From Herpetosiphonaceae bacterium (GTDB lineage: Bacteria; Chloroflexota; Chloroflexia; Chloroflexales; Kallotenuaceae): a DNA stretch of 53,701 bases. How positions within the stretch are numbered: position 1 is the first letter of the stretch; each line of letters begins with the position of its first letter. The notes under the pieces were generated by a model. It searched no databases. It saw only the letters and a list, made by a program, of their open reading frames with translations, and was not told the origin of the DNA. The stretch is taken from assembly GCA_036374795.1 (NCBI GenBank), contig DASUTC010000349.1:1-53701 (forward strand), given 5' to 3'. The translations under genes and the position numbers were made by a program. Shown piece by piece: positions 3,226-51,395 of the stretch.

Positions 3226-3304
3226 GGACGAAAGAACAGGGGAAGAAGCGCGCAACTGGGAACGTGGAGCGGGGAACTCGAAACTTAACAGCTAGAAAGC
3301 TGGA
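3226..3304 (+). repeat. Degenerate GAAC-type repeat tract between mraZ and rsmH
   Basis: After the mraZ stop come GAAAGAACAGGGGAAGAA, GGGAACGTGG and GGGAACTCGAAACTT, in the same order as the better-preserved tracts (GAACAAA-like first, GAAACTT-like second). Confidence 0.6.
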
Positions 3305-3307
3305 GCT

Positions 3308-4363
3308 GTGACAGAATTCGCGCACATCCCGGTGTTGTTCGAGGCGACGCTCGACGGTCTGGATATTCGACCAGGCGGCACCTACATCGATGGGACGCTT
3401 GGCGGCGGCGGGCACACGGCAGGGATGTTGGAGCGCGGCGCGGGGCACGTCCTGGGGATCGATCGCGATCCGGCGGCGCTTCAGGCGGCAGCGGAGCGGC
3501 TACGGCACGTCGGAGAGCGACTGACGCTGGTCCACGGCAACTTTCGCGACGTTGGCAGGCTGGCGCGGGCGCAAGGCTTCGAGCAGGTCGACGGCGTGCT
3601 GCTCGACATCGGCGTCTCGTCGCCGCAGCTGGATGTTGGGGAGCGCGGCTTCTCATTCGCCCAGGATGCGCCGCTCGATATGCGGATGGACCCCACGCAG
3701 GGGGTCACGGCGGCGGATCTGGTCAATACCCTGCCTGAGGCAGAGCTGGCGGATGTGATCTACCGCTACGGCGAGGAGCGCGCATCGCGCCGGATTGCGA
3801 AGCGGATCGTGGAGCGGCGACGCAGCGGCCCGATTAACAGAACGACAGAGCTGGCGGAGCTGGTGGCGCGGGCGGTCGGCGGAAGGAAGGACGAGCGCAT
3901 CCATCCCGCGACGCGCACGTTTCAGGCGCTACGCATCGCCGTGAACGACGAGCTGGAAGCGTTGGAGGAGGCGCTTCCCGCCGCGACAGAGCTTCTGGCG
4001 CTTGGTGGGCGGCTGGCGGTGATTACGTTTCACTCGCTGGAAGACCGCATCGTCAAAGAGTTCATGCGGCGCGAGTCGGCGGTGTGTCTGCTGCCGCCAC
4101 GGCTGTTTGCGGAACAGTGCCCGCATCTGGTCGCGCGCGGCGCGGGGCCGCGTCCATGTATCTATATCGGCAGCCGTGATTGCGACTACGCGCCGCGACT
4201 GGAGCAGGTGACACACAAGCCTGTCGGGGCGACAGCCCAAGAAGTGAGCGCGAATCCGCGCAGCCGCAGCGCAAAGCTGCGCATCGGGCAGCGGATCGCA
4301 GGCGAAAGAACAAAAGAACAAAAGAACAAAGGAACAAAGCGAGAACCAAAAACCGAGAGCTAA
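3308..4363 (+). CDS. rsmH: 16S rRNA (cytosine-1402 N4) methyltransferase RsmH
   Basis: RsmH methylates N4 of C1402 in 16S rRNA using SAM. Motifs: [13 protein letters not shown] at the start, the SAM loop [10 protein letters not shown] (about 28-37), [15 protein letters not shown] near 97, [29 protein letters not shown]-type sequence near 200, and [12 protein letters not shown] near 240. The start is GTG 3308, with GGAG only 2 nt away. The C-terminal tail after RIGQRIAGE is encoded by the GAACAAA repeat tract ([17 protein letters not shown]). It is unlike the family and is probably an accidental extension. The gene sits second in the cluster, as usual. Confidence 0.95.
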
Positions 4364-4463
4364 GAACCAAACCGAGAACCGGGTGCCACGCGGGTGCCTG
4401 GCGCACAAAGGAAGTGGGCACGCGGAACCTGAAACCTGAAACTTGGAACCTGGAACCTGGAAC
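4304..4463 (+). repeat. GAACAAA / GAACC / GAAACTT repeat tract spanning the rsmH end and the ftsL leader
   Basis: Octamer-like units of the AAAAGAAC type run from 4304 to 4338 inside the rsmH reading frame. GAACC units follow at 4341-4380, and GGAACCTGAAACCTGAAACT-type units at 4423-4463. This is the longest direct two-part tract in the window. The first part contains no T in the coding sense. Confidence 0.85.
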
Positions 4464-4487
4464 AGAGAAGATAAAGGAGATCCTCGT

Positions 4488-6750: not shown

Positions 6751-6815
6751 GACGAACGTTCAAAGTTCGACAAACCCGACACCTGGAACTTGAAACTTGG
6801 AACTTGGGTCCTGGA
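6751..6815 (+). repeat. GAACTT/GAAACTT repeat tract between ftsI and murF
   Basis: GAACGTTCAAAGTTC, then CCTGGAACTTGAAACTTGGA-type units and GGGTCCTGG. It is mostly the second (GAAACTT) part of the bipartite pattern. It occupies the position where many dcw clusters carry murE. Confidence 0.75.
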
Positions 6816-16308: not shown

Positions 16309-16420
16309 GCCGGGGTGTGGGGAGTCCCCACCATTTCTTCTCTTTTCCGTGTGTTGTGGTAGGAAGAACAAAGGAACAAACAAGGGAACAAGGGGAAACC
16401 CTGAACTTGAAACTGGGAAT
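16288..16420 (+). repeat. GAACAAA / GAAACTG repeat tract between murC and murB
   Basis: GAAGAACAAAGG (16288-16299) spans the murC end. A GTGGGGAGTCCCCAC palindrome with pyrimidine-rich tail follows (about 16317-16350). Then come GAAGAACAAAGGAACAAACA-type units, GGGAACAAGGGGAA and GAACTTGAAACTGGGAA up to 16420. This is the same two-part order as at other spacers. Confidence 0.85.
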
Positions 16421-16427
16421 ATGTATT

Positions 16428-17417
16428 TTGAACCGTGAACTGAACAAACTAGAGCTGCTTGAGCACGAGCCGCTGGCGCGCTACACATCGTGGCGGATCG
16501 GAGGTCCGGCGCGCTACTTTGCCAACGCCGCCAGCGCCGACGATCTGCGCGATCTGATGCAGTGGGCGCAGGCCGAGTCGCTCCCGGTATTCATCCTGGG
16601 CGGCGGCACGAATATCCTGGTCGCTGATGGAGGCTATCCCGGCCTGGTGATCCGCAACCGCGCGGCCCAGTCGCGCATCGAGGAGCGCGGCGATGATGTC
16701 CGGCTCTGGATCGAGTCGGGCGCGCCGACGGCAGGCACGGCGCGGCGGCTTGCGGCGCAGGGCTACGGTGGCCTGGTCTGGGCCGAGGGCTTGCCCGGCA
16801 CGATCGGCGGCGCGATCTTCGGCAACGCGGGCTGCTACGGCGACGATATGGCCCACGATCTGATCCGCGCCTGGCTGCTGCGCGACGGCAATGTCGAGGA
16901 GTGGTCGGCAGCGCAGTTCGAGTATGGCTATCGCAGCAGCGCGCTGAAGCGGGCGCAGGCCCTCACCCTTAGCCCCAGCCCCACGCTCAGGCGGGCCTCT
17001 GCCGTCGCGGCGATGGGAGAGGAGAGGCAGGGTCGGGCCGAGGGCCTTGTGCTCCCAACAGTGATCCTTGCGGCGGAGATCCGCCTGTTTCGCGACGATC
17101 CGGCGCGGCTGTCCGCCGAGATGGCGGCGATTGCCGAGTCGCGCAAGAGCAAAACGCCCGCTGGCTCGTCGTGCGGCTCCGTCTTCAAGAATCCGGAGGG
17201 CACGACCGCCGGGAAGCTGCTGGATCAGGCGCGATTGAAAGGCACTCGTGTCGGCGGCGCGATCGTCTCCGACAAGCACGCGAACTATATTGTGAATCTC
17301 GGCGGCGCGACCGCCAGCGACGTGCTGCGGCTGACGGAGATCATGCGCGAGCGCGTGCTGGCCGAGTTTGGCGTCGCGATGGAGCTTGAGGTCCAGGTGG
17401 TGGGGGAACAGGTATGA
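16428..17417 (+). CDS. murB: UDP-N-acetylenolpyruvoylglucosamine reductase MurB, with an in-frame repeat insertion
   Basis: MurB is the FAD/NADPH enzyme that reduces UDP-GlcNAc-enolpyruvate to UDP-MurNAc. FAD-domain motifs: [13 protein letters not shown] (about 22-34), [20 protein letters not shown] (about 55-74) and [19 protein letters not shown] (about 122-140). The C-terminal part has [12 protein letters not shown] with the catalytic Ser region and a Glu near the end. Residues about 178-206 ([20 protein letters not shown] and on) are an insertion encoded by an 89-bp palindromic repeat between RSSALKRA and [14 protein letters not shown], which are normally adjacent. TTG 16428 is the likeliest start; no in-frame ATG precedes the conserved region, so this is uncertain. 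It overlaps ddl by 4 bp. Confidence 0.92.
16958..17046. repeat. Palindromic repeat element inserted within murB
   Basis: Ends are inverted (GGCCCTC at 16958-16964, GAGGGCC at 17040-17046). An inner pair GCCTCT/AGAGGC is present near 16994 and 17022. The sequence type (CCCTCACCC..CCCAGCCCC..GGAGAGG) resembles intergenic palindromes common in Chloroflexota genomes, but here it is translated. Confidence 0.7.
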
Positions 17418-18589
17418 CCAGAAAACCGCGTGTCGGCGTGGTCTTTGGCGGGCGCAACAGCGAGCACGAGGTTTCGCTGAAGTCGGCGCGCTCGGTCATG
17501 GAGGCGCTCGACCAGGATAGATATGAGATTGTGCCGATCGGCATCGACAAACAGGGCCGCTGGATGGTCGGCGGCGATCCCCTGCTGGCGCTGGAACAGG
17601 CCGCCGATCTCCGGCTGCTGACCCGCGATCCGCTGCCGGGTGTCGTGCAATCGACGCTGCCGCTGCATACCAGCAGCGGTCGGCTGCCCGACGAAAGCGC
17701 GCATGTCGAGCCGTCCTACGCGGCGCAGGCGGAAGCGCCGCTCGCGCCCCGTGGCGCGGACGCGGCTGAGCCGACGCCGATCCAGCAGCTCGATGTGATC
17801 GTGCCGGTGCTGCACGGCATGTACGGCGAGGACGGCGCGCTCCAGGGCTTGCTCGAAATCGCGGATGTGCCCTACGTCGGCTGCGGCGTGCTGGCGGCGT
17901 CCGTCGGCATGGACAAGGGCGTGATGAAAGCGGCATTCGCGGCGGCTGGCCTGCCCCAGGTGCCTTATCTGCTGGTGCGTCGCCGCGACTGGGAGCGCGA
18001 GCGCGAGGCCGTGCTCGATCAGGTCGAGGCAACCTTGCGCTATCCCGTCTTCACCAAGCCCGCGAATGCCGGATCAAGCGTGGGCGTGAGCAAGTGCCGC
18101 AGCCGCGCCGATCTGGCGGCGGGGCTGGATCTGGCCGCAGAGCACGATCGCCGCCTGATCGTCGAGCAGGGCGTGAATCCGCGCGAGCTTGAGGTGGCCG
18201 TGCTGGGCAACGACGACCCGCAGGCGTCGGTCGTCGGCGAGATCATCCCCGCCAACGAGTGGTACGACTACGCCGACAAGTACCTGGAAGGCCGCACCCA
18301 ATATCTGATCCCGGCTCCGATCGACGCGGCGACCTCCGATCGCGTCCGGCGGATGGCGGTCGATGCGTTCAGGGCGATCGACGGCGCGGGCCTGGCTCGT
18401 GTCGACTTCCTGCTCGACAAAGATAGCGGCGCGGTCTATCTCAACGAGGTCAATACGTTCCCAGGCTTCACCTCGGGCTCGATGTATCCCAAGCTCTGGG
18501 AAGCAACCGGCCTGCCTTATCCTAAGCTGCTGGACCGGCTGATCGAGCTGGCGCTGGAGCGGCACGCTGATCGAAGAACGCGGGAGTAG
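17414..18589 (+). CDS. ddl: D-alanine--D-alanine ligase
   Basis: This ATP-grasp enzyme makes D-Ala-D-Ala for MurF. Motifs: [17 protein letters not shown] (about 9-25), [16 protein letters not shown] (about 134-149), [15 protein letters not shown] (about 155-169), [13 protein letters not shown] (about 216-228) and [18 protein letters not shown] (about 343-360). The Tyr in [10 protein letters not shown] agrees with D-Ala-D-Ala rather than D-Ala-D-lactate specificity. The start overlaps the murB stop, and the end runs into a repeat tract. A stretch at about 70-118 is longer than in many homologues. Confidence 0.95.
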
Positions 18590-18664
18590 AACAAGCAAAC
18601 AAAGAACAAAGAACAAAGAGGTAGATGGTTTATTTGTTCTTTGTTCCGTTGTTCTTTGTTCTTC
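18589..18664 (+). repeat. Inverted GAACAAA repeat tract between ddl and ftsQ
   Basis: GAACAAGCAAACAAAGAACA-type units (18589-18620) face TTGTTCTTTGTTCCGTTGTT and CTTTGTTCTT (18634-18664) across about 14 nt, so the transcript can fold into a long imperfect hairpin. The closing half has the same TTTGTTCCGTTGTTCTT core as two other tracts. Confidence 0.85.
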
Positions 18665-25734: not shown

Positions 25735-26061
25735 AGACAATTAAGAACAACGGAACAAAGAACAAAGAACAGATGGCAGCCGAGATACCGTTGCCAATCC
25801 GATGTTCGATGGAAACAAAGCATAAACAGGAGGTTGACCTTGCTTGCCCTTTGCTCGTTCCTCTCCTTGCTAATCCATGATCCGGGAGCCGGTTCGAGAA
25901 ACACACGATTCCGCATCAGAAAGGGATATTGGGAGGACGCTCCCAAGCGCCCGCCTGACGGCTCGCAAGCTAGTTTTCATCAGAACAAGGAACAAAGAGA
26001 ATGCACCACGTCATACTCTTTGTTCTTTGTTCCGGGCGCCCTCTGGGCGTCTTTGTTCTTC
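25735..26061 (-). repeat. yebC-ruvC spacer: inverted GAACAAA repeats at both ends
   Basis: Read on the minus strand: GAAGAACAAAG right after the yebC stop, a GC-rich GCCC..GGGC palindrome, GGAACAAAGAACAAAGAG and its inverted copy CTCTTTGTTCCTTGTTCT (together about 26064-25982), then about 210 nt without a gene, then GTTCTTTGTTCCGTTGTTCT (about 25771-25742) just before ruvC. The central part holds no credible reading frame or motif. Confidence 0.8.
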
Positions 26062-33034: not shown

Positions 33035-33562
33035 TTGATAACACCACTCCGCATTGCAGTTTGTGGCCCCGGCCAGGCAGATACGCCGATACTGGCGCTT
33101 GCCGAAGCCGTCGGGCTTGGCCTGGCGCGCTCCGGCGCGATTGTGCTGTGCGGCGGCCTGGGTGGTGTGATGGAAGCGGTATGCCGGGGCGCGCGGCAAG
33201 CTGGCGGTCTTACCGTTGGTCTGCTTCCATCGACGGATGCACTCGCCGCAAATCCGTCGGTGGCGCTGCCGATTGTCACCGGAATGGGCGAGGCTCGGAA
33301 TGCGATCCTGATCCACAGCGCCGAGGCGGTCATCGCCGTTGGCGGCGGCTGGGGCACGCTCTCCGAGATCGCGCTGGCCCGTCGAGCGGGCCTAACCGTT
33401 GTGGGCCTGCAAAGCTGGGCACCCAGCGGCGCAGAGTCGCTCGTCGAGGCCGTGACAACACCTGAGGAAGCGGTCGAGCGCGCGGTAACGGCAGCCCGTC
33501 AGCGACGTGGTAGCGTCGGTTCAGCGGTCTATCACATTGACATCAGCGCTTCAAACGTATAA
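33035..33562 (+). CDS. LOG/TIGR00725-type nucleotide-binding protein (175 aa)
   Basis: A single Rossmann-like SLOG domain. It starts IAVCGPGQADTPILALAEAV, with IVLCGGLGGVMEAVCRGA near residue 40 and the signature AVGGGWGTLSEIALARRAG near 108-126 (the GGxGTxxE motif with PGG replaced by VGG). Related proteins bind nucleotides and act as cytokinin-type phosphoribohydrolases or as DprA-like proteins; which applies here cannot be told. TTG 33035 is the only plausible start, weakly supported. Confidence 0.8.
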   Translation: MITPLRIAVCGPGQADTPILALAEAVGLGLARSGAIVLCGGLGGVMEAVCRGARQAGGLTVGLLPSTDALAANPSVALPIVTGMGEARNAILIHSAEAVIAVGGGWGTLSEIALARRAGLTVVGLQSWAPSGAESLVEAVTTPEEAVERAVTAARQRRGSVGSAVYHIDISASNV

Positions 33563-33563
33563 T
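33537..33563 (+). promoter_or_regulatory. Promoter for the first glycoside-hydrolase-like gene
   Basis: Perfect hexamers TTGACA (33537-33542) and TATAAT (33558-33563), with a short 15-nt spacer. The -10 overlaps the stop codon of the LOG-like gene. Confidence 0.65.
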
Positions 33564-33627
33564 GAAGCCGCTTCTAACGATGTCTGCGTACTGGTTTTGG
33601 GCTGATACACGCCCCAAGGAGGAATCC

Positions 33628-35418
33628 ATGCGACGACGCGCGTCTGTCAGCGCTCTGCTCGTCTTGCTCGCCGCGCTGTTGGTGCTTCCAACGCTCGCCG
33701 AGGCAAGCCCGCCGCCCCCGCAAGTTCAATATTTTAAAGAGTCAGGCCATGCCGCGCATAACTGGTACTGGCAGTTCTGGAAGAGCACGCCGAATGCACT
33801 CCGCATTCTGGGCTATCCGATCTCAGAGCCGTTCGTGCAGGAGAGCTTTACCGAGCCCGGTAAGTTCTACCGCGTACAGTACTTTGAGCGCGCGGTGCTT
33901 GAAGAGCATCCAGAAAACTTTGGCCGCGACGGCAACCGATTCTATGTCCTGGGCCGCCTGCTTGGTAACGAGCTGATCAAGGGCCGCGAGAACGAAGAGC
34001 CCTTCAGGCCAGTCGCCTCGATCCCCTCCAACGCCAACCAGACCTGGTTCCGCGAGACTCAGCACACGCTGCGCAACGATGCCACCAGGGGTCCGTTCAA
34101 GTCGTTCTGGGAGCAGTACGGCGGCCTGCTGGTCTTTGGCTATCCCAAGTCGGAGCCGTTCCAGGAGCGCAACCCCGATACGGGCGAGACATACTGGGTG
34201 CAGTACTTCGAGCGCAACCGCTTCGAGTTCCATCCCAACGAGCGTGATCCAGCCTATCGCGTGCTGCTTGGTCGCCTTGGCGATCAGTATGCCAAGCAGA
34301 ATCCCGACAAGATCGATGGCGATGCGTTCAACTATCGCGAGCCTGCCGGCTCGCTGCCGGAGCCGTTCATCTACGGCTCGAACGCGCAGCTCTACTACGT
34401 CGATCGCGAGCGCACGCTGACACTTGCCAAGAACGCTTTCGAGGCCAACAACTACTCCGGCACCGGAACGTGGATTCGCCAGCAGGTGCCGTGGCAGGAT
34501 CACATGAACGCCGACGGCTCGATCGCCTGGGGTGAGCTTGATAAGGTCGTTGCGGAGGCGGACGCGAAGAAGGTCAGGCTGCTCTTCAGCGTCGTGCGCG
34601 CGCCCGGCTGGGCTACCTCGGACGGCGGGCATGGCATGCCCACCAGGGCAAACTTCGGACGCTTTGGACAGTTCATGGGCGCGCTCGCCACGCGCTACCG
34701 TGGCCGGGTCCACGCCTACGAGATCTGGAACGAGCAGAACTACGCCGTCGAGAATGGCGGTGTGGTCGCGGAAGCGCCGTTCTATGTCGATCTGCTGGTC
34801 ACAGGCTACAATGCGATCAAGGCCGCCGATCCGAACGCGATCGTCGTTTCGGGCTCGCCCACGCCCACTGAAACCAACAAGTCCAACGTCGCCTACAGCG
34901 ATCTGACCTACTTCCGGGCGATGTTCCGCGATCCGCGCTTCCGCGCGCACATGGATGTCGTCGGCGTTCACCCGGCAGGCACACTCAATCCGCCGGACTC
35001 GCTGCCCGATCCGGGCCGCAACATCACCAACATCTGCGACACCTGGAACGGCAACATGGAGTTCTACTTCCGCCGTCTTGAGCAGATCCGCCAGATCATG
35101 GTCGAAGAAGGCCTGTCGGATCGTCAGATGTGGGTGACGGAGTTCGGCTGGGCGACGCAGAACAACACGCCGGGCTACGAATACGGCCAGTGCAACTCGA
35201 TGGAAGAGCAGGCGCAGTACATCAAGCGCGCGATCGAGCTTGCTCGCTACAACTACGCTCCGTGGGTCGGCGCGATGTTTGTCTGGAACCTGAACTTTGC
35301 CGTGACGTGGCAGGGCGCTGGTAATCCGTTCCACGAGCAGGCATCGTTCGGTATCCTGAACCCCGACTGGAGCCCGCGACAGGCGTTCAACGCCATCCAA
35401 AATATGCCGAAGCCCTAA
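33628..35418 (+). CDS. Secreted glycoside-hydrolase-like protein with N-terminal repeat domain (596 aa)
   Basis: AAGGAGGA precedes ATG 33628. Signal peptide: basic start, LLVLLAALLVLPTLAEAS. Residues about 40-230 hold two copies of an aromatic-rich repeat (LGYPISEPF..QYFERAVLEEHPE and FGYPKSEPF..QYFERNRFEFHPN), each ending in a LLGRLG-like segment. Residues about 250-596 form a TIM-barrel domain of the clan-A type, with YEIWNEQN (acid/base Glu369) and MWVTEFGWAT (nucleophile Glu505). It is likely an outside polysaccharide hydrolase; the repeats may bind carbohydrate or wall. The substrate and exact GH family are unknown. The next gene is a paralogue of its catalytic part. Confidence 0.82.
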   Translation: MRRRASVSALLVLLAALLVLPTLAEASPPPPQVQYFKESGHAAHNWYWQFWKSTPNALRILGYPISEPFVQESFTEPGKFYRVQYFERAVLEEHPENFGRDGNRFYVLGRLLGNELIKGRENEEPFRPVASIPSNANQTWFRETQHTLRNDATRGPFKSFWEQYGGLLVFGYPKSEPFQERNPDTGETYWVQYFERNRFEFHPNERDPAYRVLLGRLGDQYAKQNPDKIDGDAFNYREPAGSLPEPFIYGSNAQLYYVDRERTLTLAKNAFEANNYSGTGTWIRQQVPWQDHMNADGSIAWGELDKVVAEADAKKVRLLFSVVRAPGWATSDGGHGMPTRANFGRFGQFMGALATRYRGRVHAYEIWNEQNYAVENGGVVAEAPFYVDLLVTGYNAIKAADPNAIVVSGSPTPTETNKSNVAYSDLTYFRAMFRDPRFRAHMDVVGVHPAGTLNPPDSLPDPGRNITNICDTWNGNMEFYFRRLEQIRQIMVEEGLSDRQMWVTEFGWATQNNTPGYEYGQCNSMEEQAQYIKRAIELARYNYAPWVGAMFVWNLNFAVTWQGAGNPFHEQASFGILNPDWSPRQAFNAIQNMPKP

Positions 35419-35491: not shown

Positions 35492-35552
35492 CTCTGGTAC
35501 ACTGCCATCAATGAGACTACAGATGTGAGATGAGCCATCGAGGAGGCTATTG

Positions 35553-36887
35553 GTGAAAAAACGATCATGGCGCGGCAGACAATTGTGGGTCGGCCTCATG
35601 CTGATCGGCCTGCTCCTGCCGCTGCTGGCAGCCTGCGGCGGAGTCGCTCCCGTAACGCCCGCCGATCGCACAACCACTGCCGAGCCGTCAGCAGCTCCGG
35701 CAGCCACGACAGATACAACAGCGCCGTCGGACACGCCAGCGACGCCATCAGAGACAACCCCTACTGAATCATCTGCTCCTTCAGCCACAAGCGAGCCTCA
35801 GAATACGCCGGGTACAAATACATCTAATATTCCCGAACGTCTGGAGTTCGGCACTGCGGCGCATCTGTACTACACCGATGCCGACCGCGTGATGAAGCTG
35901 GCGGAGATCGCGGGCTTCGATTGGATTCGGCAGCAGGTCCCGTGGAAAGATACCGAGGTGCCAGACCGGACCTTCGGCTTTCAAGAGCTTGATAAGGTGG
36001 TCGATACGGTGGCGGCCTACAAGAAAAAGCTGCTGCTGAGCGTTGCCAAATCGCCGGACTGGGCGACTGGCCGACCAGGCGATAACGGCCTGCCCCAGAA
36101 GAAAGAAGATTTTGGACGCTTCGTGGAAGAGCTGGCGAAGCGCTACAAGGGCAAGATCCACGGGATCGAGGTCTGGAACGAGCAAAACCTGGCGGTTGAG
36201 AACGGCGGTCGCGTGGCGGCGGAAGACGCCGGGCGCTATGTCGAGATGCTGAAAGAAGCCTACACCCGCATCAAGGCCGTCGATCCGAGTATCGTCGTCG
36301 TGGTGGGCGCGCTCTCGTCGACGGGCGTCACCGAGATCAATACCGCCGTCGATGACATAACCTACTATAAGGCGATGTACACCTACAACGGCGGCGAGAT
36401 CAAGAACTACATGGATGCGCAGGGCTTCCACCCGGCGACGGCGCTCAACCCGCCCGACGCGCTGTGGCCCGACGAGCCAGGCCCCGGCCCGGGCTGGCAG
36501 GACAGCCGCACGCACTATTTCCGCCACATCGAGGACGTGCGCCAGGTGATGGTCGAGAACGGCGTCGGCGACAAGCAGATCTGGATCACCGAGATGGGCT
36601 GGGCTACCAAGAACAACACGCCGGGCTATGAGTACGGCAACCACGTCTCGCTTGAGCAGCAGGCCGAGTACCTGGAGGGCGCGCTGTTCCGCACCAAGAC
36701 GCAGTACCAGGATTTCGTGGGCGTTGTCTTTATCTGGAACCTGAACTTCGCGATCACGTCGGCGCAGGCCGGGAACGAGTTTCACGAGCAGGCATCGTTC
36801 GGCATCCTGAACCCCGACTGGAGTCCGCGTCCGTCATTCACCGCGATCCAGGGCTTTATCAACGCCGAGCGACGCGGCAACCAGTAG
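35553..36887 (+). CDS. Glycoside-hydrolase-like lipoprotein (444 aa)
   Basis: GAGGAGGC lies 6 nt before GTG 35553. The N-terminus is a lipoprotein signal: LLLPLLAACGG, with lipid-carrying Cys27. A Thr/Ser/Pro-rich linker (about 33-95) leads to a TIM-barrel domain paralogous to that of the preceding gene: IEVWNEQN (Glu210), WITEMGWATKNNTPGYEYG (Glu347) and HEQASFGILNPDWSPR are shared. It lacks the N-terminal repeat domain. It probably acts on the same kind of polysaccharide while anchored to the outer face of the membrane. The two arose by duplication. Confidence 0.83.
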   Translation: MKKRSWRGRQLWVGLMLIGLLLPLLAACGGVAPVTPADRTTTAEPSAAPAATTDTTAPSDTPATPSETTPTESSAPSATSEPQNTPGTNTSNIPERLEFGTAAHLYYTDADRVMKLAEIAGFDWIRQQVPWKDTEVPDRTFGFQELDKVVDTVAAYKKKLLLSVAKSPDWATGRPGDNGLPQKKEDFGRFVEELAKRYKGKIHGIEVWNEQNLAVENGGRVAAEDAGRYVEMLKEAYTRIKAVDPSIVVVVGALSSTGVTEINTAVDDITYYKAMYTYNGGEIKNYMDAQGFHPATALNPPDALWPDEPGPGPGWQDSRTHYFRHIEDVRQVMVENGVGDKQIWITEMGWATKNNTPGYEYGNHVSLEQQAEYLEGALFRTKTQYQDFVGVVFIWNLNFAITSAQAGNEFHEQASFGILNPDWSPRPSFTAIQGFINAERRGNQ

Positions 36888-36926
36888 CGACTACATCGCG
36901 CAGCCCCTCGGCTCAGCAGCGGATAC

Positions 36927-37024
36927 GAGCCTGCGGCAGCATGGTACGGCTCAGGTAAAAGTGTGTGCTTTTGCGCTGTCAGCGCAAAAGCACACACCAG
37001 ACAAGCGCAGGGACCGCTCTGCCG
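36927..37024 (+). repeat. Structured repeat element, copy 1 (constant ends, variable perfect hairpin)
   Basis: Left end GAGCCTGCGGCAGCA (36927-36941), 19 nt, a perfect 17-bp stem GTGTGTGCTTTTGCGCT / AGCGCAAAAGCACACAC with loop GTC (36961-36997), 15 nt, right end ACCGCTCTGCCG (37013-37024). Copy 2 at 46044-46145 has the same ends and spacings and a different stem. It lies 40 nt after the lipoprotein gene. Confidence 0.85.
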
Positions 37025-37074
37025 CACCCCGCAAGACCTCAGGCGTAAGCGCTGGACAATGCGCCTGACACAAA

Positions 37075-37102
37075 GCCCACCGGGCACGATAGCTCGGTGG
37101 GC
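37075..37102 (-). terminator. Terminator after the MoxR/DUF58 cluster
   Basis: GCCCACCG and CGGTGGGC around a 12-nt loop; on the minus strand TTTGTGT follows. It lies 40 nt past the DUF58 gene stop. Confidence 0.7.
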
Positions 37103-37142
37103 CTGTGCGCTCAGCGGATCGTGCGCGGCCTGATATGAGCCG

Positions 37143-38469: not shown

Positions 38470-38574
38470 AGAGAACAAAGAACAACGGAACAGAGAACAA
38501 ACAAACGATGTACCTCTTTGTTCTTTGTCTGTGCTTCCTCGTCGTTGTTCTTTGTTCTTTGGTTGTCTGTTCTC
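38470..38574 (-). repeat. Inverted GAACAAA repeat tract between the MoxR and DUF58 genes
   Basis: Read on the minus strand: GAGAACAGACAACCAAAGAA-type units, then ACAAAGAACAAAGAGG, and after about 8 nt the inverted copy ending GTTCCGTTGTTCTTTGTTCT. It has the same closing core as the ddl-ftsQ and yebC-ruvC tracts. Confidence 0.85.
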
Positions 38575-38577
38575 CCG

Positions 38578-43881: not shown

Positions 43882-44326
43882 AACGTGCTCCTTTGATCGA
43901 TCTCCTGCCTTGGTGGTAGGGTGGGATGCGGCTGCTTTAATGAAAGCGATCGTCGCGGCTTTTTCATTGATCACAGAGGCAGTACGTAGCAGTTACGTTT
44001 GGAGTTGCGCCGCGCTGTATACGATTCTTTATCGTTGACACGGGCGCGCTTTGGTGATAAGTTGTACGTATCTTATCTTCCTACTCTTCTATCCTCTCTT
44101 CGGACTAAAAAGCGTTCGTTGCATGTGTCCTACGCTCCAGTAGGACCGCTCGATCTCGTGCAGAATCAAGACACTGTTCGGAAAACAACGTAAGCGATTC
44201 TGCATCTGCATGGGGAATGTTTGGGGACAAGCCCAAACCCCCGGCCTGTCAGCCCACCAGGCTGGTATCACAGTAGCTCCACTCACATGGTCCTGTTTGC
44301 GCTCGGTTTTCCAAAGGAGGTTAGCC
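43882..44326. other. Non-coding upstream region of the large secreted protein gene
   Basis: A 445-bp AT-richer stretch. It holds an AATGAAA..TTTCATT inverted repeat (about 43939-43969), a TTGACA box (44035-44040) followed 17 nt later by a weak TAAGTT, a pyrimidine-rich run (44071-44102) and a small GTTTGGG..CCCAAAC hairpin (about 44219-44238). I see no credible gene in it. Confidence 0.5.
44035..44063 (+). promoter_or_regulatory. Candidate promoter for the 561-aa secreted protein
   Basis: Perfect TTGACA at 44035-44040 with a weak -10 (TAAGTT, 44058-44063) at 17 nt. It would give a long leader of about 255 nt. Confidence 0.35.
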
Positions 44327-46012
44327 ATGGCGTTGCAGACACGGAAGAATCGCGCTGGCCGGTTGATCTTTGCGATCGTCGCCCTACTGACGATCATCGC
44401 CACGGCGGGAGCGGTGCAGGCTGCCCCGCAGGCGCAGCGCCTCAAGCCAAAGCCCACGTTCGCGAAGGAGGCTGCCTTCGACAAAACGGCGACGCTGCGT
44501 GAGATGGCCCAGCGCCCCCGCCAGCCGGTGGTGCCACGAGAGCTGCCGGAAGAGCGCGGCCCGGTCGTCGCCGATCGCGGGCACTCCGGCGATGGCGCGC
44601 TTGAAGCGGGCGCGGAGGCCGCCGTGCAGGCCGCGCAGATCCCCGCACCGCTGATCACCTTCGAGGGGCTGCGCAACACGGATAATCCGTTCCTGGTCAA
44701 TCCGCCCGATCCGGTCGGCGATGTCGGCCCGAACCACTATGTCGAGATGGTCAATCTTTCGTTCGCGGTCTACTCGAAGACGGGCACGCGGCTGCTCGGC
44801 CCGCTGCCGCTCGGCGTGCTCTGGGATGACTTTGCTGTGTCCGACTGTGAAGATCTCTCAGGCGATCCGATCGTGATCTACGATCAGCTTGCCGATCGCT
44901 GGATTCTTTCGCAGTTTACTACGCTCGGCCCCACCTTCTACAACTGCGTAGCGATCTCGCAGACCGGCGATCCGACCGGGGCCTACTACCGCTACGCTTT
45001 CTCATCGGGCGTGAACTTCCCCGACTATCCCAAGTATGGCGTGTGGAATAACTCGTATCTGCTGACCACGCGCGAGTTCGGGCCGGTCGACGAGTATGGC
45101 ATCGGCGTCTATGCGCTGGAGCGCAACAAGATGATCAACGGCGAGCCGAATGTCCGCACAGCCAGCTTCTTCCTCGACGCCGAGGTCGTGCCGATCTCGC
45201 TGATCGGCGATGGCCTGCTGCCGCCTGACATCGACGGTACGCGCCGACCGCTGGATCATGTCGCAGCGCCGATCGTCGGCACGCAGGACGACGACCACCC
45301 CTACGGCGCGACGTTCGACGCGCTCAACATCTGGAATCTCTTGGTGAGGTGGAACTCAACGCCCTCAGCCTCGCTTGAGCTGGTCAGCCAGATTCCGGTC
45401 GCGGAGTTCGACTCGATCTTCCCCTGCGCTCCGTCCTCCCGCGACTGTATTCCGCAGCCGGGCATTACGAATCCCGCCCAATACATCGACATTCTCTCCT
45501 ACCGGCAACGCCCGACATGGCGGCTTGCCTACCGCAACTTCGGCACCTACGAGGCGCTGGTGACGAACCAGTCGGTCGAGGCGCGGCCCGGTATCGCAGG
45601 CGTGCGCTGGTATGAGCTCCGCCGCGCGGGTGGTCAGTACTCGCTCTACCAGCAGGGCACGTTCGCCCCCGACGACGGCGTGCATCGCTGGATGGGCAGC
45701 ATCGCGATGGACAAGCGGGGCAACATGGGCCTGGGCTACAGTGTCTCTAGCTCGACGGTCTATCCCGGCATTCGCTACACCGGGCGGCTCAGAGGCGACG
45801 CGCTGGGCGCGATGCCGCTGGGCGAGGCCGTGCTGATCAACGGCTCCGGCTCGCAGCTTACCACCAACTCGCGCTGGGGCGACTACACCTCGATGAACAT
45901 CGATCCGACCGATGACTGTACGTTCTGGTACGTCAACGAGTACTACGAGACGACATCGCTGGCGGGCTGGCAGACGCGGATCGGCAGCTTCAAGCTGCCC
46001 GGCTGCCAGTAA
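44327..46012 (+). CDS. Large secreted protein of unknown function (561 aa)
   Basis: AAAGGAGG lies 8 nt before ATG 44327. Signal peptide: RAGRLIFAIVALLTIIATAG, then AVQAAPQ (cleavage about 33). The mature part opens with a charged region and then FEGLRNTDNPFLVNPPDPVG, DVGPNHYVEMVNLSFAVYSK, YDQLADRWILSQF, and later MDKRGNMGLGYSVSS and WGDYTSMNIDPTDDCTFWYV. The spaced Trp/Asp blades suggest a beta-propeller-like fold. Six or so Cys could form disulfides. No catalytic motif is recognised. It stands alone, followed by copy 2 of the structured repeat and a terminator. Confidence 0.75.
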   Translation: MALQTRKNRAGRLIFAIVALLTIIATAGAVQAAPQAQRLKPKPTFAKEAAFDKTATLREMAQRPRQPVVPRELPEERGPVVADRGHSGDGALEAGAEAAVQAAQIPAPLITFEGLRNTDNPFLVNPPDPVGDVGPNHYVEMVNLSFAVYSKTGTRLLGPLPLGVLWDDFAVSDCEDLSGDPIVIYDQLADRWILSQFTTLGPTFYNCVAISQTGDPTGAYYRYAFSSGVNFPDYPKYGVWNNSYLLTTREFGPVDEYGIGVYALERNKMINGEPNVRTASFFLDAEVVPISLIGDGLLPPDIDGTRRPLDHVAAPIVGTQDDDHPYGATFDALNIWNLLVRWNSTPSASLELVSQIPVAEFDSIFPCAPSSRDCIPQPGITNPAQYIDILSYRQRPTWRLAYRNFGTYEALVTNQSVEARPGIAGVRWYELRRAGGQYSLYQQGTFAPDDGVHRWMGSIAMDKRGNMGLGYSVSSSTVYPGIRYTGRLRGDALGAMPLGEAVLINGSGSQLTTNSRWGDYTSMNIDPTDDCTFWYVNEYYETTSLAGWQTRIGSFKLPGCQ

Positions 46013-46043
46013 CAGGACGTACGCGGTGGTCTGCCTGGGCCTT

Positions 46044-46145
46044 CGGCAGAGCGGTACGGGATTGGTTAAGGTTGTGTGGTAGTGTGCCCGAAGGGCACAC
46101 TACCACACAACAAAACCAGGGGATCTTCCTTGCTGCCGCAGGCTC
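46044..46145 (-). repeat. Structured repeat element, copy 2 (constant ends, variable perfect hairpin)
   Basis: In minus orientation: GAGCCTGCGGCAGCA (46145-46131), 19 nt, a perfect 19-bp stem GTTGTGTGGTAGTGTGCCC / GGGCACACTACCACACAAC around 3 nt (46111-46071), 15 nt, ACCGCTCTGCCG (46055-46044). The ends and both spacer lengths are identical to copy 1; only the stem differs, by 4 nt in total length. It lies 31 nt after the secreted protein gene. Confidence 0.85.
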
Positions 46146-46204
46146 AACGCCCTGTGAACAGAAATGGCCGCGTAACTCCTGTCAGTAAAACGTTCTCATC
46201 TCGC

Positions 46205-46240
46205 GGGACCGGCGCGGAGTCTAAGCGCCGGTCCCGTTTT
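46205..46240 (+). terminator. Terminator after the secreted protein gene
   Basis: GGGACCGGCGC, loop GGAGTCTAA, GCGCCGGTCCC, then GTTTT. Perfect 11-bp GC-rich stem, about 190 nt after the gene and just before the convergent glycosyltransferase stop. Confidence 0.8.
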
Positions 46241-50649: not shown

Positions 50650-51317
50650 TGGCACACGAGCAGGCAGCCGAGCAGCGTCCGTTCACGGTCGCGGTGCTGA
50701 TTTCGGGAAGCGGATCGAATATGCAGGCGCTGCTGGACGATCAGACCGGCTACACGGTCGGGCTAGTGCTGGCTGATCGAGCGGACGCCTACGGGTTGCA
50801 GCGCGGCCTCGCAGCCAGGGTGCCGACTGTGTGCGTTCCGCTGCTGAAGCCCAAAGACGCGGCGGCGCGGGCGCGCTGGGAGCAGCAGATCGCGGGGCTG
50901 CTCGATGTGTTCGATCCCGATCTGATCGTCATGGCCGGCTGGATGCGGGTGATGTCGGCGGCGTTTATCGCGCGCTTCGCCGGGCGGATCATCAACCAGC
51001 ATCCCGCGCTGCTGCCCGACGACGCGGTCGATACCTATCGGCTGGCGAGCGGCGCGACGATCCCGGCGATCCGTGGCGCACACGCCGTCCGCGACGCGCT
51101 GCGCCTTGGCCTGCCCACCACCGGCTGCACGATCCACTGGGTGACAGCCGAGGTCGATGTCGGCCCGGTGCTGGCGCGCAGCGAGGTGCCGGTGCTGCCC
51201 GGCGACGACGAGGCCGCGCTCCACGAGCGGATCAAGGCCCATGAGCGCCGGATGATCGTCGAGGTGGTGCGGCGGTTGGCGGGGGATGAAAGAACAAAGG
51301 GAGAAGCAAGAACCTAG
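50646..51317 (+). CDS. purN: Phosphoribosylglycinamide formyltransferase PurN
   Basis: PurN transfers a formyl group from 10-formyl-THF to GAR (purine step 3). VAVLISGSGSNMQALLD (about 15-31) is the phosphate loop. The catalytic residues are kept: Asn and His in IINQHPALLP (about 116-125) and Asp in TAEVDVGPVL. Compared with E. coli PurN the loop after HPALLP is longer (DDAVDTYRLASGATIPAIRG), which is unusual. The last residues (DERTKGEART) are encoded by a GAACAAA repeat tract. 223 aa. Confidence 0.92.
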   Translation: MMAHEQAAEQRPFTVAVLISGSGSNMQALLDDQTGYTVGLVLADRADAYGLQRGLAARVPTVCVPLLKPKDAAARARWEQQIAGLLDVFDPDLIVMAGWMRVMSAAFIARFAGRIINQHPALLPDDAVDTYRLASGATIPAIRGAHAVRDALRLGLPTTGCTIHWVTAEVDVGPVLARSEVPVLPGDDEAALHERIKAHERRMIVEVVRRLAGDERTKGEART

Positions 51318-51395
51318 AACCAAACGAAAGAACAAAAGAACAAAGGAACAAGGGAACAAGGGGAATCCGAACTTGAAACTTGAAACTTGAAACTC
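51288..51395 (+). repeat. GAACAAA / GAAACTT repeat tract between purN and the UbiA-type gene
   Basis: GAAAGAACAAAGGGAGAAGC in the purN end, GAACCTAGAACCAAACGAAA, AAAGAAC/AAAGGAAC/AAGGGAAC octamers (51327-51364), then CCGAACTTGAAACTTGAAAC units running into the start of the next gene. Best-preserved example of the direct two-part form, together with the rsmH-ftsL tract. Confidence 0.88.

Follow-up and report, generated by a model that had tools for sequence, protein, structure and literature searches.

The window, the whole 53,701-nt stretch of DNA analyzed here, contains two short units with identical ends and identical spacer lengths around hairpins of different sequence, both perfectly paired. 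What kind of element holds its ends constant while both arms of its stem change, and do such changes mean that the fold is kept? The original prediction had taken them in that sense, and had proposed a mobile hairpin element, a recombination site with exchangeable cores or a structured RNA.

Two hairpin cores and their sister copies

Both units were recovered as had been described, one on each strand, and consist of the following parts:

36927..37024, + strand: core of copy 1, 98 nt, made of the 15-nt GAGCCTGCGGCAGCA, 19 nt, the hairpin, 15 nt and the 12-nt ACCGCTCTGCCG
36961..36997, + strand: perfect palindrome in the middle of copy 1, with a stem of 17 bp and the loop GTC
46044..46145, - strand: core of copy 2, 102 nt, with start (15 nt), spacers (19 and 15 nt) and end (12 nt) as in copy 1
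46071..46111, - strand: perfect palindrome in the middle of copy 2, with a stem of 19 bp and the loop TTC (+ strand, GAA)

These two stems are the only perfect hairpins of more than 12 bp with loops of 3 to 10 nt in the window. In the 7.75-Mb genome, the exact two-end pattern occurs at two places only, copies 1 and 2, and a reversed control pattern at none. Shortening the ends raised this number to six, relaxing a base added one more family copy (L009), and a DNA similarity search recovered additional copies beyond the pattern matches. From the pattern and similarity searches of this draft genome, we estimate a total of about 25 copies, mostly decayed.

The fixed spacings did not hold outside the window. 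Further copies are 49 to 99 nt long; some have mismatched stems (L013, L014, L017, L045 and L046), and in others the palindrome is lost or truncated (L004, L005, L015, L016, L018 and L028). Long perfect stems persist in just three of the copies recovered from this genome, including the two of the window. Imperfect stems and variable spacings, which the original prediction had named as evidence against a conserved structure, are therefore found in the very genome of the window. Given the many copies of this genome in which the stem is mismatched or deleted, the data do not support a conserved functional fold. Independent insertion of the hairpin into the surrounding miniature inverted-repeat transposable element (MITE, see below) was also considered and rejected: L016 compared with L003 looks instead as if the hairpin had been deleted between the short ACCC repeats on either side of it.

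The window displays other repeated features. Low-complexity AGAACAAA/GGAACAAAG tracts are present in intergenic regions on either strand (4301-4364, 16363-16410, 18588-18663, 25735-25775, 38470-38577 and 51315-51378), and similar tracts on other contigs (L059). A second low-complexity intergenic family, AACTTGAAACTTGGA-like with a period of 7/14 nt, was detected at 3255-3296, 4406-4475, 6760-6815, 16391-16432 and 51371-51394, and also in L060. Two tandem paralogues (33562-35418 and 35550-36887) share blocks that are 70-78% identical and about 1450 bp apart; a Pfam search assigned the second to Cellulase (GH5) and gave no match for the first.

Element ends, insertion sites and related insertion sequences

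In a wider-flank alignment, the homology among sister copies extends about 40 nt past both core ends, up to terminal inverted repeats (TIRs), and the pair ACAGGAGTTACGCGG ... CCGCGTAACTCCTGT bounds an element of about 170 bp. The 98- and 102-nt units are the core of this MITE. The whole elements and the features next to them are:

36888..37055, + strand: whole MITE copy 1, from sister-copy alignment, outer limits approximate and TIRs decayed
37041..37055, + strand: right TIR of copy 1, decayed; AGGCGTAAGCGCTGG matches 10 of the 15 bases of CCGCGTAAGTCCTGT, as deduced from alignment
37074..37104, no strand assigned: terminator-like hairpin belonging to the two genes around copy 1, separate from the MITE
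46007..46011, + strand: target site duplication CAGTA, left of copy 2, perfect over 5 bp
46012..46182, - strand: whole MITE copy 2, 171 bp, from TIR-pair scan
46012..46026, + strand: TIR of copy 2, ACAGGACGTACGCGG, from TIR scan
46168..46182, - strand: TIR of copy 2, ACAGGAGTTACGCGG, matching the consensus perfectly, from TIR scan
46183..46187, + strand: target site duplication CAGTA, right of copy 2, perfect over 5 bp
46204..46236, no strand assigned: terminator-like hairpin of 12 bp followed by a T-run, separate from copy 2 and downstream of it

In the sister-copy alignment, the left TIR of copy 1 is hardly recognizable; copy 1 is the older of the two. Copy 2 has inserted precisely at the stop codon (TAA) of the open reading frame upstream of it (44210-46012), the duplication providing TA and the MITE its first A. 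The whole of this copy folds as a nested hairpin (z = -7.6).

Scanning the genome of the window with the TIR pattern gave 38 matches, against 10 with a reversed control, and many of them pair as elements of about 105 to 171 bp; the pairs were viewed locus by locus, L062-L069 excepted. Target duplications were assayed on 56 related elements with both ends. An exact 5-bp duplication was present in 14 of them at one fixed offset (0.29 with shuffled flanks) and in 7 at the offset of a second subfamily (0.30 with shuffled flanks). The elements thus display what defines a MITE: TIRs, a duplication of constant length, short dispersed copies in number without a transposase gene, and empty sites.

The empty sites were found in congeners. 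Copies 1 and 2 each occupy the space between two convergent genes, immediately past a stop codon. In G058, the two genes that flank copy 1 have orthologues 63 bp apart, as compared with 255 bp, with no element between them; this space contains a strong GC hairpin followed by a T-run, the counterpart of the hairpin at 37074..37104. In G060, the gene preceding copy 2 is homologous up to the MITE border; its stop codon is followed, about 25 nt further on and with no MITE in between, by a terminator hairpin of the type found at 46204..46236. In these comparisons between species of one genus, the insertions of copies 1 and 2 are absent from the orthologous sites of G058 and G060, respectively.

These results bear on all three proposals. 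Mobility is borne out by the TIRs, the target duplications, the empty sites in congeners and the matching IS701-family elements described below. A recombination site, integron attC-like or a site-specific cassette site, would account for constant ends around a variable inner hairpin, but the elements have 5-bp duplications and TIRs of DDE-transposase type, they are single and dispersed with no cassette arrays, and their empty sites are simple; this proposal is almost certainly wrong. A functional structured RNA or terminator, with selection on the fold producing compensatory base changes, would suit the location of both copies past a stop codon between convergent genes, and also the strong two-sided covariation in Kouleothrix presented in the next section. 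However, the Rfam covariance-model search of the window gave no match to the hairpins, and two tRNAs only. Neither stem is followed by a T-run, as is the GC stem of an intrinsic terminator. Each element is adjoined by the terminator of its own site, also present in congeners without the MITE, so that the earlier statement that this is no ordinary terminator or simple repeat was correct. Moreover, the stem is mismatched, partly deleted or missing in many same-genome copies, those without a hairpin resembling direct-repeat deletions, and TIRs, target duplications and absence from congeners are not features of such an RNA. We consider a structured RNA or terminator very improbable.

Larger elements with similar ends were detected in related genomes. 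In K. aurantiaca, a 1272-bp element with the 18-bp TIR ACAGGACTTACGCGGTGG at both ends encodes one 401-aa DDE transposase, which matches IS701 models best, below their cut-offs, and Pfam DDE_5 above its cut-off; a search by sequence gave no relative of solved structure. In the same order, complete insertion sequences (ISs) of 1.06-1.12 kb carry the TIR AGGASTTACGCAGTT, and most are flanked by 5-bp duplications. Their transposases score 345-374 bits with the NCBIfam IS701 model (cut-off 250). One relative with the variant TIR AGGACTTTCGCT (L161) is in a genome of the window's genus. Because IS701-family ISs of this order have these termini and 5-bp duplications too, the MITEs look like non-autonomous derivatives of such ISs, and we infer from the shared ends that IS701 relatives mobilize them. 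An autonomous partner was not found in the draft genome of the window (G000): searching it with the K. aurantiaca transposase gave no match, and five DDE_Tnp_1 matches were rejected as none has the TIR. The lack of a transposase match fits with a decayed MITE population. A partner in the same genome is not strictly required, as MITEs can outlive it.

Another IS candidate, of 1.1 kb on contig C798 of the Kouleothrix MAG (L144), proved to be two MITEs bracketing an unrelated protein-coding gene. These belong to differing subfamilies and lie about 1 kb apart, in a composite-like arrangement.

Stem and loop changes among Kouleothrix copies

A core scan of 84,980 species genomes gave 67 matches, about 56 of them from one Kouleothrix MAG and the rest from K. 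aurantiaca and further Chloroflexota. Matches in Streptomyces and Asaia (L109, L125), with neither hairpin nor flanks, were set aside as probable chance occurrences in coding DNA.

In the Kouleothrix MAG, a fragmented assembly whose repeats could be partly chimeric and from which the palindrome data mainly come, 43 of 50 stems of at least 15 bp have no mismatch, and the 893 bp of stem contain 9 mismatches in all. Subfamily B (14 copies) has no mismatch in 251 stem pairs. Between its copies, 144 site differences are two-sided and none is one-sided, and two variable stem sites are present in all 8 combinations. In subfamily A, 1760 differences are two-sided and 80 one-sided. The flanks of the closest copies are still 6-10% divergent; among the 26 pairs whose flanks diverge by no more than 10%, the stem differs in 25, and both stems are perfect in 20 of these.

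The loop was also found to change orientation. Loops are reverse complements in 14 of the same 26 pairs, and the two orientations are about equally frequent (GGA 10 and TCC 8; TTT 7 and AAA 6). When loops were shuffled with column composition preserved, at least 18 distinct triplets were obtained in 5000 shuffles, as compared with the 11 observed, and the reverse-complement statistic was reached in 16 of 20000. Assembly k-mers are usually longer than stems of 17-19 bp, which makes an assembly artefact an unlikely source of the loop inversion. Similar hairpins are present in contigs of K. aurantiaca and of Chloroflexi bacterium L.E.CH.5, and in the latter L104 and L115 have opposite loops (GCA and TGC). 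Finally, L094 and L095 are mosaics in which halves of two subfamilies are joined across the hairpin, and L112 and L124 have arms of differing types, indicating that copies also exchange sequence.

Template switching during replication is known to produce both arm homogenization and inversion of the spacer or loop (PMC8604942; PMC8794818). The Kouleothrix copies display the same products: two-sided arm changes far outnumber one-sided ones, and loops are inverted. This combination points to replication template switching and not to selection on the fold, as selection on pairing does not predict loop inversion. Thus, of the original argument that complementary change means a conserved fold, the two-sided change stands and is strong in Kouleothrix, whereas loop inversion points to copying of DNA from arm to arm. 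Stems probably differ yet stay paired through copying errors that rewrite one arm from the other, template switching being deduced here from its products.

Some related elements have additional features. In L.E.CH.5, the right MITE end of L100, L104, L115 and L129 has an extra hairpin holding the TIR (TTACGCGGGTCGTC-TGCAA-GACGACCGCGTAA). In K. aurantiaca, L143 (about 378-546) is a MITE with a perfect central stem of about 37 bp, continuous with GGTACTT/AAGTACC inner arms, and TTATTGC is repeated in its flanks.

Origin of the perfect palindrome

Altogether, these elements very likely form a MITE family of Chloroflexota that is mobilized in trans by IS701-family elements and whose palindrome is kept by template switching. 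IS701-family transposases would recognize the ACAGGASTTACGCGG / TAGGASTTACGCAG termini, mobilize the MITE in trans and generate the 5-bp duplications. The MITE is a nested palindrome, with a perfect inverted repeat of 17-19 bp and a 3-nt loop innermost. The stem sequence would drift, and the arms would stay complementary as template switching copies one arm onto the other, within one hairpin or between copies, often with inversion of the loop at the same time. A copy whose palindrome is broken, or lost through slippage between short flanking repeats, would then decay. A host function for the hairpin would be unnecessary.

Other processes might also produce perfect stems. Gene conversion between copies, acting alone, would swap whole hairpins, perfect stems coming from perfect donors. 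It could explain many of the two-sided differences, and the 8 combinations in subfamily B, the L094/L095 mosaics and the mixed arms of L112 and L124 are all in its favor. It does not simply explain loop inversion, since a ratio of about 1:1 needs conversion in inverted register, which is intermolecular template switching, and it leaves unexplained why donors remain perfect; we judge it unlikely as the sole process. Selection on the DNA hairpin during transposition could also favor perfect stems, if transposition were aided by extrusion of the hairpin or by an internal protein site and only copies with perfect stems were recently mobile. Indeed, stems are mostly perfect in younger-looking families and few are so in decayed genomes, and the nested palindrome extends across the whole MITE. 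However, the hairpin-less L016 and L015 keep good TIRs and near-matching duplications (TATCG/TATTG and CAATT/GAATT, respectively). Moreover, stem sequence, stem length and loop orientation are free, and loop inversion is not predicted. We find such selection rather improbable.

Template switching itself might be either a background process or a conversion specific to the MITE, with an unusually high rate of rewriting and inversion, perhaps during transposition through hairpin or single-strand intermediates. The specific process seems doubtful, with a small chance of being correct; if it were real, every MITE would bear a self-perfecting, randomly oriented hairpin.

A literature search gave no description of this MITE family in Kouleothrix or Chloroflexi. 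The family is newly found; as a kind, MITEs with IS-matching TIRs are already known. Like bacterial IS-derived MITEs such as MITEAba12 (PMC6382973), it is short, noncoding, multicopy and mostly intergenic, with IS-shared TIRs and target duplications, but it differs by a perfect, hypervariable palindrome nested in inverted repeats and by IS701-type termini. It shares the AGGASTTACGCR termini, the 5-bp duplications and the bacterial order with IS701-family ISs (NCBIfam NF049921), whereas it is only about 170 bp long and has no transposase gene. Intergenic palindromic repeats of mobile origin are also known as REP/REPIN with RAYT (PMC3733652). In contrast to these, the MITE is longer, bounded by TIRs, flanked by target duplications and linked to a partner of DDE type, and the GTAG foot is not constant, being present in the L003 copy only. 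Template-switch hairpins (PMC8794818; PMC8604942) resemble it in arm homogenization, multi-base compensatory change and loop or spacer inversion. Those cases are single loci compared across taxa or strains, whereas in the MITE family dozens of copies scattered over a single genome serve as replicates.

Ordinary as mobile DNA, the element is valuable as a natural experiment: in dozens of copies of one palindrome within a genome, with constant flanks as a clock, stems are seen to change on both sides and loops to flip. Such data can tell whether "compensatory" change is due to template switching or to selection. They also caution that a functional RNA is not proven by covariation in intergenic hairpins of bacteria, and the MITEs record palindrome template switching in nature with unusual clarity.
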